Of a DNA stretch of 64,000 bases, positions 42,838-48,900 are shown piece by piece. The stretch lies in NCBI RefSeq assembly GCF_000003605.2, contig NW_003155239.1, positions 155,154 through 219,153 of the forward strand, read 5' to 3'. Under the pieces are notes generated by a model. The model did not search any database. It had not been told where the DNA came from and saw nothing but the letters and a program-made list of their open reading frames with translations. How positions within the stretch are numbered: position 1 is the first letter of the stretch; each line of letters begins with the position of its first letter. A program made the position numbers and the translations under genes. The stretch comes from Saccoglossus kowalevskii (taxonomy: Eukaryota; Hemichordata; Enteropneusta; Harrimaniidae).

Positions 42838-42996
42838 ATGCCTACAACATGTGGGTTTCCTAATTGCAAGTTTCGTTCACGTTACAAGGGATCTGACGAC
42901 CCACGCCATTTTTATCGTGTGCCTAAGAAACCCGCTATATTACGTGAGAGGTGGTTAGAAGCTATTGGAAGGACTGAAGAAACCATTGTTGGTCAG
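42838..42996 (+). CDS. CtBP: CtBP coding exon 1: first part of THAP domain
   Basis: Encodes residues 1-53. The start [12 protein letters not shown] supplies zinc ligands C5 and C10, spaced C-x4-C. H24-F25-Y26-x2-P29 and W39 match the conserved THAP Phe/Pro and Trp positions. The splice acceptor TTCTATTGCAG ends at 42818, so 19 nt of 5' UTR precede the ATG within this exon and a non-coding exon must lie upstream. The donor is CAG|GTACAT after codon 53 (phase 0). Reading on past the donor gives unrelated residues, which supports the junction. Confidence 0.93.
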
Positions 42997-45900
42997 GTAC
43001 ATCTAAAATGCTGCCAATTAAACATCAGTATTCAATCGTTAATTTGTCTACAATTTAAATCTCCACTACCAACATTTCTCCTGCCATGTAATTTATAAGT
43101 ACTTGCCTCAAAATTTCTGAATTTTAGAGATTAATCCTTTGAGTGACAAAGTCAACTTTCGACAACATTCATGAATTTTTGCTAATTTTTTTCCTAATTT
43201 TGATGAAGTCTTGTATTCAATAGAAATTTTTATCTCTTTGGTTCAAAACTATCAAAGGAAAAAATGCGTAGTACCAGGCAAATGTTGCATGAAAACTGCC
43301 CAGAAAAAATTCTGACACTCAAAGAATTAAGTTTTTGAAACTTTTTTAGTTTGAAACAATCTCAAGTGTGTGTTATTAATTTTTCGACTAGGATATCATT
43401 GGTATTGAAGTACGGTACTTTTATATACTTGTTTCTCTGATTTCTGATTTGTTTCAAATACCATGTTTGTTTTTTGTTTTATCAGAAGCACCTTTCCGAA
43501 ATAAGCATGTAGAGACCAAAAATCATATTTGTTGAATATACTCATTTTGACTATACAAACACCTCTGTAAATAAGGGCATGCACTGCTAATAGAGTAAAT
43601 ACAGTACCTATATTAGGAACTGATCAATTTACTCAAAGATTTGCATATCAAACCATTATACTTTGCCGCGATAATACTTGAAGGTGTTCAATAAATTTGT
43701 TTGAAGCAGTTATTTTATACCCTGGAGATATTTCATAAACAACTATCATCAAGGATCCATTGTCTTGAAACTATACAAGAATTGCATGTTAAATTTCTAT
43801 TGGGATTGATCAGAAAACAGAGACACTATATTGCTGTTATTGAAATATTATGTGAATATTTTATATTGTCGAAACAATACAATCTGGAATCCTTCAGCCT
43901 GTCATGCGTTCAACATTTACTTGGAGATTTGTGTGAATTTAAAGATAGAAAATAAACAATGTTAAATTCCTAAGCCAAATTACTTCAGATTAATATCTGT
44001 AGATATTTTGTTCATATTGTTATTTACTTGTTTTGAGTCTCCAGAATGTATTGTTTCATTATGTGCAATGTTTTTTTATACAAACCACACATGGAATTAT
44101 AATTTAGTTTCGTTTTGGTGTACAATCATGAAAGTGTGGCGACTGCTTACTTATTAGATAGATCATGCTATAAAGATAAATAATTCCATGTGTGATAATG
44201 ACCTAGTGGTGTATAGTGTTATAGTATGCAAGCCAGCCAGCCAGTCAACCATGCAGGTTGGCGGGTCGCTCTTACTGGTGGCGGTGGTAGCTTTGGGGTA
44301 GGTGATATCTTCCACTAATTCAATCTCTCACCTTTGCTTGTTAAGTCCTTATTACCTCCTCCTTGCTAAAAACCAATCCACTAACAACTCAATGGCTGGT
44401 AGGTAAACAGGTCTAGGCATTGTCATGTCATGTCATTTGCTATATGTCAGGATTTAGTATCCAATTAGTCAACAGAGGATTTTTTTTTTTTAACTCTTAG
44501 TGCAACCAACTGTCTGTAGAAAGGCTTTGGCATGACCAGCGCCCTCTATAGTTTACTTTGTAAGGGTTTGTTTTAACAATTAACATATTAACCCTGGAGT
44601 GCCTTGCTTCTTTGTCTAATAAAAGTTTTAGTTGTTTTTCTCATATTTTTCTTAGCATGCTTTGCTTTGCTTTGCTTTGCTTTGCTTTTCTATTCCCTAC
44701 TTATTAACCCAGTTTGTAGTCGGTGTAAGCAATATAGGGAGGAGCACCTATCTTCACAACGCTATATTTCGTTTTGGTGATATCTTGCTGCATCTTTTTT
44801 TTTTTTTATGTGTGGCTATATAACTATTATGCACCACCAGTTTTATTTTGAAAGACTTGTTTTATTATTCCAAGTTGATTTTATAAATTGTTAACATTGT
44901 ATGTAATTGTGTCCGTTGCATGATGTTGTGCACTGTTGTCATGATTTTTAGCACTTGAACTGATCTTATTGTATATAGGGGCCCTGCTGAACTGCTATTG
45001 ACAGACAGCGTCCGTGACAAGAGTCCTGATACACAGCCGAGTTTTATTAAGGTATAAAGCAAAGATTTTCCCTTTTCACACCGTTTGAAAGGTGCCTGTA
45101 GTGAATGGTGGAGAAGAAGAGATACCTATTGTGTATACCTCAATGTATGTTTTCGCTTTTACCCAAATTTGAAATGTTGGTCATAGTAGAAACATCCCGG
45201 ATATGTTTCAGCTCAGGGAAGCTTCACGAATGAAAAATAATTGTTCAAGATGCTACTTTTCACCAATATTAACTCAATTTTTGTATTGCCATCTGAGTGG
45301 ATGGTTGTAGCTTAGGGAGATGAGTTACCTTCCTAATGTCAGCCTAATAATTCCCTGCACATGATCACAATACCTCACATTTGACCAGTAGTACATCATT
45401 ACCTGGTTAAAAAAAAAAAACTGTTTATGGAAGCAATCAAAGCATCGTTTGGAATTGTATATCCTTCACTTTGAAAACAGACTCATGTGATGCAAACAGT
45501 GTCACTGAAAACCTCAACAGAAGAAACATGGAAATTGGTCAAAATTGCCAAATTTTTAAATTTCACATTATGCGAGGTGTACACTGTAGGTTTCTCTTTC
45601 TTCACCAAACTAGAGATGTGAATCGCCGTTATACTTGGCCTTTGTACGTCCCTGCTGCAGCTCCTAATATGTACTGATATGCTGTATGTACATGTGTTTT
45701 TCTCACCAATAATGTCAACTTTTTGGGGCCTGTTTGTATTATCACTGATGAAGAAAGCAATTGAGCATTTCCATGTTTATATTATTAATTGCATTTCCCT
45801 ACATTTTCGGGATCTTAATTTCCATGGTGACTGCATAAGGTAGGGTTAGCTTTGATATAATTAATCGTGTTAAGAATTTACTTGTAAAGCAAAGTTTCTT

Positions 45901-48900
45901 GCATATGGCAGTCATTGTGGTGCAGGTGTGAGCACCATATTTGTTTTTTGTCGCCTTTGTGTATGTTGAAACTGAAAGAATATCTTTTGTTTTTAGCTGA
46001 AGGCAACAAATTGTGCATGTTCTCTGTACCACTGTCCGTGTCTGTTTTGTTTTTTTGTGTTGCTTGCCTGCCATTTGTATGAGTTCTTGTACTATCACTG
46101 AGTGCGTATCTGACCCCATCCAAGTCACCGAGTGCATTCTGCGAGTAATTACAATAATCTGATCTTATGGCACCAAATTATTTTGACCATCGGTCTTGGT
46201 GAGATTAAGAATAACAGAATGCACAAATTGGGATAGAAGGGTCAGTCAGCTTTTTCCGTTTTGAGTACGACCATTTTGAAAATGCTAGAATTCAAACATG
46301 TCATTTTCAAGTACTATTTTCTTTACTGACAGTTTTTGATAATTCTTGGCTGTTAAATCTCGCATCTAAACCGAACACTTTCTCAGTTTTTGTGGTGCTT
46401 GGTTGAGACTAGTGTCATTTTATGTTTTTAATTCATGTGAAAAAAAATAGTATCGTACTTCAGATTTTCACAATGAATTTGATTTATATTAGGTTTTTTC
46501 AGCCCATAAACAGGAACAAAAAAAGCTGAATATTGTACAAGAGTTGCAAAGAAACCTAATTCTAGCTATCCTTAATTTAATTTTTTTTTTACAATTAATG
46601 GATCAGGAAAAGGGGGTTAATTTTGTCCTGCATGCCACACACTTTGAGGGTCCCGTACTGAGGACTGCAATTAGTTATGGTGTTTGGTAAAGCAAGTCTT
46701 TGTTCTTAAACATGTATAATTCAGTGCATTTTGTGAGAAATATAACCAAGTTAAATTACTTTATAATCAACAGAAACAGATTCAGTGCTAATACAGAGTT
46801 GTAAGTCTGCTTTATACAGCAAATCCTCTTTAATTAGTGTGCAGTAAGTCAGCTTTAATTAGTGTGCAGTAAGTCGGCTTTAATTAGTGTGCAGTAAGTC
46901 GGCTTTAATTAGTGTGCAGTAAGTCAGCATTAATTAGTGTGCAGTAAGTCGGCATTAATTAGTGTGCAGTAAGTCGGCTTTAATTAGTGTGCAGTACCAG
47001 TAAGTCTCCTTGAAATAGTATGCAGCAAGTTTGCTTTTACTAGTAAAGATGGTCGCCATGCTTTGTGCATTCATCACATCTTACATGGTATTATAGGAGG
47101 GTGGTATAGACATTATTCATACTGAATAAGTGTTAAGCTTTTAATACGGATGCTAATATAGTTGACCTCCAGGTAAGTGTTTTATTTGGCGATATCTGGT
47201 GTTACAAGCATCATGTGTGGCTTAAAAAAGGAACTGGTCAGTTGGTGAATACGGTAAGTGGGTCATGTATAACGTGTGGCTGGCTCAGGTAATGTTAATA
47301 TCTGTTACGTGTTTATACCTTGGCTTTCTCGTATTGTAAACTTGTGTGTGTAATGTGGTGGTGACAGTCTGTGATCTTTGCAAGTTGTGCATTTTTGATT
47401 TTACTGTGTAATATTGAAAAAATGTATTTTAGTGAGATGGGTTATTTGTGTCAAAATGCATATCTAGGCAGTTATATTCAAAAAGACATGATTTGTATAT
47501 AGTGGAACTCGTCCACATATTGTTGTAACTTGTCCACTGAATGGTTTCTTTTAATCAGACACCAAAAGTAAACCATATATTTTCTTGAAAATGTAGGCTT
47601 TCTCTTCTACTATATTCTTGATCTCATTTCAGAGCAACAACACACCCACCCAACACCTCATGCCTCCCCCACCCAGCTCAGCCTGTGATTTAAATTCAAT
47701 TAAAGTATATGAAAGATTTGTTCGATCAATAAAAAAAACGCTTATAGTGAATGCATTCGAGGCGACCCAAAATTCAAAAATTGAATGTTGAGGTCCAGTG
47801 TGATTAGGATAATTATTGCCTGACAATCATCAGTTGCACGCTTCACTGTAAATAAATCAATAAAGTCAAATTTACCAACGGCAGAAATTGTATCCTCAAA
47901 GTTTGTTGGTGTGCCCTCAGTGATAACCTCCAATAAATGTAAGTTGCCAAAAGAGGGCGCTGCAACATTTGAGGGGATTAACAGTTTGTCGCTTTTTTTT
48001 TTTGTCTCAGTTACGTGTTTGTAGTTGTCATTTTGTTGGTGGAGAAAAAAGAGAAGGTGACGTACCTGTACCTGATCCTGAATTTGATCCGCCAATAACG
48101 ATAGACATTTCCTCAGTTAAGCCTAACTCCCCTATGGACAAATCCCAAAACAGGAGAAATAAAAGGCCAAGAATGTCCGTCGACAGAATTGTAGAAAGTA
48201 AGTATGGATTTGTGTATTATGCGTCAATTCACAAAGTTAAATTTGACATATTTTACATGTTCACATGGATTTATTTTACCGTATTTAACTTACCGATGAA
48301 AATAGTGAAATTAAAACCCAGTAAATAATTAATGCTACATAGAAACCTAATACTGTAGTAGGAGAAAGCGTTTCCCCTGGTGCTACCACGGTGCCTTGTC
48401 TGACACTGCCACTGATGTCAAAGTGATTTATTTCTGTTTGTGTGCATTTTGTGTTTGTATTCAATGAATTTGTTAATCATTGAATTCCTCTTTAAAATTA
48501 TTCTTGGACAATCAGTTTCTCAGTTTTTTTTCAATTTTGACTCTGGTAATAATGTAAACGCTGTTTTTTTTATTTTGCTAAGTAAGTAAAATCTACTTAA
48601 TTAAATGTATGTGAACTTGTGAAATAACAATAGAAATTGTTTCCCTGCCAAGTCTGAAAATAGTGAAAATTAATGTTTTACAGTCCATTAAGCAAGCTGT
48701 CTTAGTTTGTATCAACAGTATTGTTTATTGTGTTTGGCATTTTTGATAACCAAAAACCAGTGACACAAAACGTGTGTACCTAATGAACTTGAGCACTTGG
48801 TAAATAATGATAAACATGTGAACCTGCACACACTCTCACAAACACACTTTATTCCGTAATTGAACATATCACTACTTGTGACGTTTTTGACTTTATTAAC

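Follow-up and report, generated by a model that had tools for sequence, protein, structure and literature searches.

The only CtBP gene found in the hemichordate Saccoglossus kowalevskii is predicted to encode a THAP-CtBP, with a zinc finger that points to an ancient fusion

The window, the whole stretch of 64,000 nucleotides of Saccoglossus kowalevskii DNA that was analysed (contig NW_003155239.1, positions 155,154 to 219,153 of the forward strand), carries at 42838-52772 on its + strand an intact gene of seven coding exons, whose product is a putative THAP-CtBP, a CtBP corepressor that begins with a THAP zinc finger. The 535-residue product contains no internal stops, all six introns have GT-AG borders and compatible phases, and the first ATG of exon 1 is preceded by an in-frame TAG at 42820. 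The original prediction had described the gene as 42838..48197, a span that fits the first two coding exons but not the whole gene, which has seven and ends at 52772. The parts of the gene are as follows; 2JM3 is the solved structure of the THAP domain of the Caenorhabditis elegans CtBP.

42838..42996, + strand: coding exon 1, residues 1-53, N-terminal part of the THAP domain (C5, C10, P29, W39), GT donor; in-frame TAG upstream at 42820; 23.8 bits to Pfam THAP on its own
42997..48010, + strand: intron 1, 5,014 bp, splits the THAP domain
48011..48079, + strand: first part of coding exon 2 (residues 54-76), which completes the THAP domain with C57, H60, F61 and VPVPDPEF; top acceptor among 6,425 AG sites; gapless match to 2JM3
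48080..48197, + strand: coding exon 2 continued, basic linker over residues 77 to about 116, with a GTAAGT donor
48198..48907, + strand: intron 2, 710 bp, separates the linker from the CtBP core
48908..49068, + strand: coding exon 3 (phase 1), where the CtBP core begins
49645..49789, + strand: coding exon 4, CtBP core
49908..50114, + strand: coding exon 5, CtBP core as far as the divided Gly codon in the NAD-binding motif GLGRTG
50331..50455, + strand: coding exon 6, remainder of the NAD-binding motif and Rossmann fold
52149..52772, + strand: coding exon 7, remainder of the core with the R/E/H motifs (ARGG, HENEP, TPHSAF), C-terminal tail (lone Trp, NGGSRYPPY block) and stop codon

Exons 1 and 2 join in frame, as had been claimed for 42838-42996 and 48011-48197; the 42996/48011 junction is in phase 0 and has GT-AG borders, and the alignment to 2JM3 passes through it without a gap. 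As a control for the acceptor, the 33 codons that follow each of the 6,425 AG sites of the window, on both strands and in the phase of exon 1, were scored against residues 54-86 of 2JM3. Scores were 125 for the site at 48011 and 17 for the runner-up (mean -43, standard deviation 13), so that no other AG site tested comes close to it as a continuation of exon 1. At the following junction, between exons 2 and 3, the phases match and a GTAAGT donor lies 710 bp from the acceptor. Within intron 1, at 46828-46996, a 25-base unit is repeated 6.8 times at 96% match. A bacterial-style promoter scan 5' of exon 1, a scan unsuited to animal DNA, returned 3 candidates against a chance mean of 3.2.

THAP domains are marked by zinc ligands spaced C-x2-4-C-x35-53-C-x2-H, by conserved Pro, Trp and Phe residues and by a C-terminal AVPTIF-like box. 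The product of exons 1 and 2 has the ligands C5-x4-C10-x46-C57-x2-H60, all four identical in 2JM3, as are P29, W39 and F61, and a V71-P-V-P box, so that the ligand spacing, the Pro, the Trp and the VPxP box of the original prediction were all recovered. The profile check that had been proposed with them, Pfam THAP (PF05485), was run on residues 1-116 and yields 37.0 bits (E 6e-9) over residues 5-61, above the curated cut-off of 23.9. Exon 1 alone reaches 23.8 bits, just below the cut-off; exon 2 therefore completes the domain. The identification of the gene as a THAP-CtBP is borne out by the in-frame exon model, the Pfam match and the match to 2JM3.

Among the THAP domains compared, the closest relative of this finger lies in a nematode. 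Residues 1-86 align to 2JM3 without gaps, with 63 of 86 positions identical (73%, E 2.4e-44), and within residues 1-76 the count is 60 of 76; the next THAP match in the PDB, THAP11, has an E value of 7e-4. Although the PDB record of 2JM3 is entitled 'Hypothetical protein', PMC2203978 gives it as the C. elegans CtBP. A search of the assembly with 2JM3 as query yielded 12 matches (E up to 10). The top two are exon 1 (75%, 99.7 bits) and exon 2 (64%, 45.3 bits) of the present gene, followed by another locus that matches in one piece at 42% and 43.2 bits; the best THAP elsewhere in the genome reaches 50% identity to the nematode domain, over residues 8-72. This result is independent of the loci chosen for the tree described below.

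The assembly holds 70 other THAP matches, some with stops, a number that is a lower bound; it leaves out the two CtBP exons, probably owing to the split of their domain. A tree of 17 THAP domains was built from the window domain, that of C. elegans, the THAP1 and THAP11 PDB chains and 13 of 30 fetched THAP loci of the same genome, the other 17 being excluded for stops in or soon after the domain, near-duplication, runs of N or the lack of a THAP-like translation; two of the 13, L018 and L038, form long branches. In this tree the window and nematode domains pair with support of 100/99 on a branch of 1.55, and in its alignment they are 78% identical over 72 residues. THAPs of the same genome resemble the window domain at up to 43% over 68 columns of the tree alignment, or 45% over 50 residues in the assembly search. 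The nearest of them by score, at 43% over 68 columns, is L028 (1492-2919), a transposon-like protein in which a THAP domain accompanies a transposase helix-turn-helix (HTH_Tnp_4); L023 and L030 are, with L028, the closest relatives within the genome. Judged by sequence, the window finger is orthologous to the THAP of C. elegans CTBP-1, and it was very probably not acquired locally from its own genome. Nematode CtBP cores are about 60% conserved with those of other invertebrates (PMC9907507). Set against that published figure, the finger, which is 73% identical to that of C. elegans, would seem to be conserved no less than the core.

The remainder of the product is a conventional CtBP. Pfam recognises both D-2-hydroxyacid dehydrogenase domains (PF02826 and PF00389), and the NAD motif GLGRTG is present together with ARGG, HENEP and TPHSAF, which hold the R/E/H triad. 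The core is identical to the PDB chains of CtBP1 (8ari) at 270 of 338 positions and of CtBP2 (9wbl) at 269 of 338, in each case 80% over 338 residues, for which 'nearly identical' to the vertebrate protein, the wording of the original prediction, is too strong. Deuterostome CtBP tails have a lone Trp, an NG-x-RY block and a charged (basic/acidic) terminus (PMC9907507); read by eye against that description, the tail of the present product has the lone Trp, NGGSRYPPY as central block and QKVEAEQ at its terminus.

The assembly, of 572,110,611 bases in 4,830 contigs with the window on contig C4443, was searched with the whole protein. At E up to 0.001 there are ten matches, seven of which are exons of the THAP-CtBP gene; the other three are weak and partial, one to residues 348-400 (40%) and two to the THAP half. 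All strong CtBP matches lie at this locus, and no second CtBP gene was found among the first-look candidates that the search scores in this fragmented 572-Mb assembly. No relatives of the THAP half or of the core were found in the viral contigs searched, nor of the THAP half in the bacterial and archaeal genomes searched. In the latter the core has 92 relatives, of which 80 loci were kept, with 30-42% identity in the best segment; they come from prokaryotic or metagenome-assembled records and have no part in the comparisons made here.

The orthology of the finger to that of C. elegans CTBP-1 means that the fusion would be shared by nematodes and hemichordates and not independent, which suggests one inherited THAP-CtBP fusion made before the protostome-deuterostome split. 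To our knowledge, vertebrate and fly CtBPs carry no THAP domain; given an ancient fusion, the finger would therefore have been lost in those lineages. An ancestral fusion with loss in vertebrates had been proposed for this gene, and its two halves fare differently: the ancestral part gains from the pairing of the finger with that of C. elegans CTBP-1, far from the THAPs of its own genome, and the vertebrate loss depends on vertebrate CtBPs not being known to carry the domain. Several observations weigh against the reading of the gene as an ancient, directly targeted THAP-CtBP. The Pfam match stops at position 58 of the 87 of the model. The C-terminal box, which lies beyond that match, reads VPVPDPEF and is not typically AVPTIF-like, although it stands at the expected place and has the same form in 2JM3. 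The splice from exon 2 to exon 3 is predicted from phase, consensus sites and homology, the acceptor control covering the junction of exons 1 and 2 only. That this is the sole CtBP gene is a statement about first-look candidates, and C. elegans CTBP-1 itself has been proposed to be recruited through a partner, EGL-13 (PMC8816384). Taking these together with the evidence above, we hold it quite probable that the sole CtBP gene found in this hemichordate assembly encodes a THAP-CtBP made of finger, basic linker, NAD-binding core and normal tail, that the fusion is older than the divergence of protostomes and deuterostomes, with the finger lost in vertebrates, and that the fingers of a CtBP multimer would aid the choice of sites.

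A question arises, could nematodes and hemichordates each have made such a fusion? The raw material exists, as the genome has its 70 THAP matches and the closest tested relative is transposon-like, and PMC2203978 cites a suggestion that cellular proteins have recruited THAP domains repeatedly. Yet the finger shares 63 of 86 residues with the nematode domain while those of its own genome stay at or below 43% over 68 columns or 45% over 50 residues, the best of them matches the nematode domain at 50% over residues 8-72, and the tree pairs the two CtBP fingers at 100/99, all of which makes independent fusion very improbable. The strikingly nematode-like finger might also raise the thought of a contaminated locus, for example nematode DNA in the assembly. 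This is barely credible for a core that is 80% identical to the CtBP1/2 PDB chains, as against conservation of roughly 60% between nematode cores and those of other invertebrates, and for a tail that has the deuterostome Trp and central block, where nematode tails have no close similarity to the conserved elements (both from PMC9907507); moreover, the locus lies on an 847-kb contig and the whole assembly contains one COX1 match. It is highly improbable, too, that exons 1 and 2 form a separate THAP gene that is no part of CtBP. The fusion transcript is deduced from genomic sequence, exon 2 stays open up to a stop at 48326-48328, and an unspliced THAP-only product is conceivable; however, the closest relative of the window THAP itself belongs to a CtBP, and the GTAAGT donor faces a phase-compatible acceptor 710 bp away.

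In the usual description, CtBP is a corepressor brought to DNA by its partners only. CtBPs form NAD(H)-dependent dimers and tetramers, bind partners with PxDLS motifs and recruit histone-modifying enzymes. With its zinc ligands intact and its close homology to a CtBP finger, the THAP-CtBP of S. kowalevskii is likely to bind DNA directly. A CtBP multimer would carry two to four THAP fingers per complex, and several fingers could hold DNA through combined weak, site-specific contacts that add to recruitment by partners. The core would recruit chromatin-silencing enzymes and still bind PxDLS partners. The finger would help to choose or stabilise sites and would not replace partner recruitment: EGL-13 binds CTBP-1 through a PLNLS motif in yeast two-hybrid assays (PMC8816384), which makes it unlikely that the finger replaces partners. 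PMC3344825 calls the CTBP-1 THAP DNA-binding, in a passage that cites Nicholas et al. 2008 for repression. The finger might instead belong to a minor isoform, with most CtBP using a different first exon or beginning at an internal Met, either M95 (48134) or M108 (48173), and being targeted by PxDLS partners only. Two in-frame Met codons within the linker, an intron 1 of 5 kb and the use of alternative first exons by vertebrate CtBP2/RIBEYE all speak for such an arrangement. That 63 of 86 residues of the finger still agree with C. elegans points to steady selection and so to its use, though not to how frequently it is used; we regard a minor isoform as unlikely, but as an alternative to be taken seriously.

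The present gene can be set beside several known systems. THAP-CtBPs have reportedly been a named group since Nicholas et al. 2008, going by the title of that work. In C. elegans CTBP-1 the THAP likewise stands N-terminal to the CtBP core and aligns gaplessly, with 63 of 86 residues identical; the tail, in contrast, is highly derived there and of the conserved deuterostome type here (PMC9907507). A 2026 preprint (PMC13228809) describes in the sea cucumber Holothuria glaberrima a THAP gene with a lactate dehydrogenase domain, which its authors liken to C. elegans CTBP1; according to the preprint, the dehydrogenase domain is absent from the other species analysed and from other sea cucumbers. 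Compared by description only, that gene shares the combination of THAP and dehydrogenase domains with ours, which carries this architecture into a hemichordate and places the single sea cucumber case in a wider frame. PMC9907507 mentions THAP once only, in a reference title. No description of a hemichordate THAP-CtBP was found in the literature searched, a search that most subscription papers, including Nicholas et al. 2008, lay outside. The THAP-CtBP group is thus already known, and what is new is its hemichordate member and the test of orthology.

Vertebrate CtBP1 and CtBP2 resemble the hemichordate protein in their core (80% identical over 338 residues) and in features of the tail, and differ in that they are not known to carry a THAP domain. 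The partner-only picture of CtBP targeting was drawn from vertebrates and flies, and is probably derived, because a THAP-CtBP orthologous to the nematode form is the only CtBP found in this non-chordate deuterostome. The ancestral mode of CtBP action thereby becomes testable in a deuterostome close to vertebrates.

Does anything of the ancestral N-terminus survive in vertebrates? The basic linker may resemble the presumed residues 6-19 of human CtBP2, a lead only. In this comparison, which is no more than suggestive, 21 of 5,000 shuffles reach the score of the linker; with K and R fixed the count is 292 of 5,000. Against the presumed N-terminus of Drosophila CtBP, the linker scores at chance level (2,444 of 5,000 shuffles, and 3,319 with K and R fixed), and that candidate was rejected. 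Exon 2 ends in DRIVEN, whose last codon is interrupted by the intron, and exon 3 opens with IRHP; these align with the presumed DRICEG of CtBP2 and the IRPQ that follows it. The DRIVEN-IR stretch (residues 111-118, window 48182-48197 and 48908-48915) looks like the DRICEG-IR presumed to surround the RIBEYE splice junction of human CtBP2. The PDB chain named CtBP2 isoform 2 matches the presumed CtBP2 stretch over residues 20-44 only, starting just before IRPQ, so that the first 19 residues lie outside the match; their letters turned up in none of the papers searched. Intron 2 thus seems to lie at the same position as the presumed alternative first-exon junction of CtBP2/RIBEYE. RIBEYE, an isoform of CtBP2, resembles the present gene in that an N-terminal module is joined to the CtBP core at apparently the same intron position. 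We put forward, tentatively and as somewhat less than an even chance, that the only CtBP of the bilaterian ancestor was a DNA-binding THAP-CtBP, that vertebrates lost the finger and kept the linker as the basic N-terminus of CtBP2, and that the vacated intron slot was reused for the A domain of RIBEYE. If so, the N-terminal variants of vertebrate CtBP would go back to an exchangeable first-exon position where a zinc finger once stood. The RIBEYE extension, for its part, differs in that no domain of the other CtBP isoforms is related to it (PMC9907507) and in being made from an alternative first exon.

The single COX1 match of the assembly lies on a mitochondrial contig of 17,037 bases (C4830). 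ATA is Ile in echinoderms and hemichordates, and AAA is Asn in echinoderms and Lys in Saccoglossus (PMC2697986). In alignments to mammalian COX1, ND1 and ND5, AAA of this contig faces Lys at 12 of 14 sites, and ATA faces Ile at 15 of 35 (Leu 7, Val 4, Met 4, Thr 3, His 1, Ala 1); in the ND5 comparison Met stands opposite 7 of 8 ATG codons and Ile opposite 7 of 17 ATT codons. The echinoderm code was rejected on the 12 of 14 AAA sites that face Lys, and the usage of AAA and ATA is best fitted by the Saccoglossus pattern of PMC2697986. Less easily fitted are the single Asn and single Arg that AAA faces among the 14, the non-Ile residues opposite ATA at 20 of 35 sites, and two aligned AGA codons, of which one faces Ser and one Pro. 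The gene order reads ND3-ND4L-ND4-ND5-CYTB and then ND6 reversed, with COX1, ND1 and ND5 confirmed by alignment and the other names given by reading; according to PMC2697986, nd5 and cob are neighbours in both of the hemichordates it compares and in Xenoturbella. Code, gene order and the CtBP tail all mark a deuterostome, for which a hemichordate is the best fit. Most genes lie on one strand and COX1 on the other, and ND2 comes ahead of ND1 (L041, L122, L123), unlike the usual deuterostome order, which may be a trait of the species or a mis-join.

Elsewhere in the window, 60001-64000 has a G+C content of 52%, compared with 30-37% in the other 4-kb steps, and contains several long open reading frames on the minus strand that appear retroelement-like by eye. 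Eight of the high-G+C open reading frames at 60-64 kb and two others were without a Pfam match at E 0.1. A tandem repeat of 36/71-base units at 59742-59873 immediately precedes this G+C-rich part of the window.

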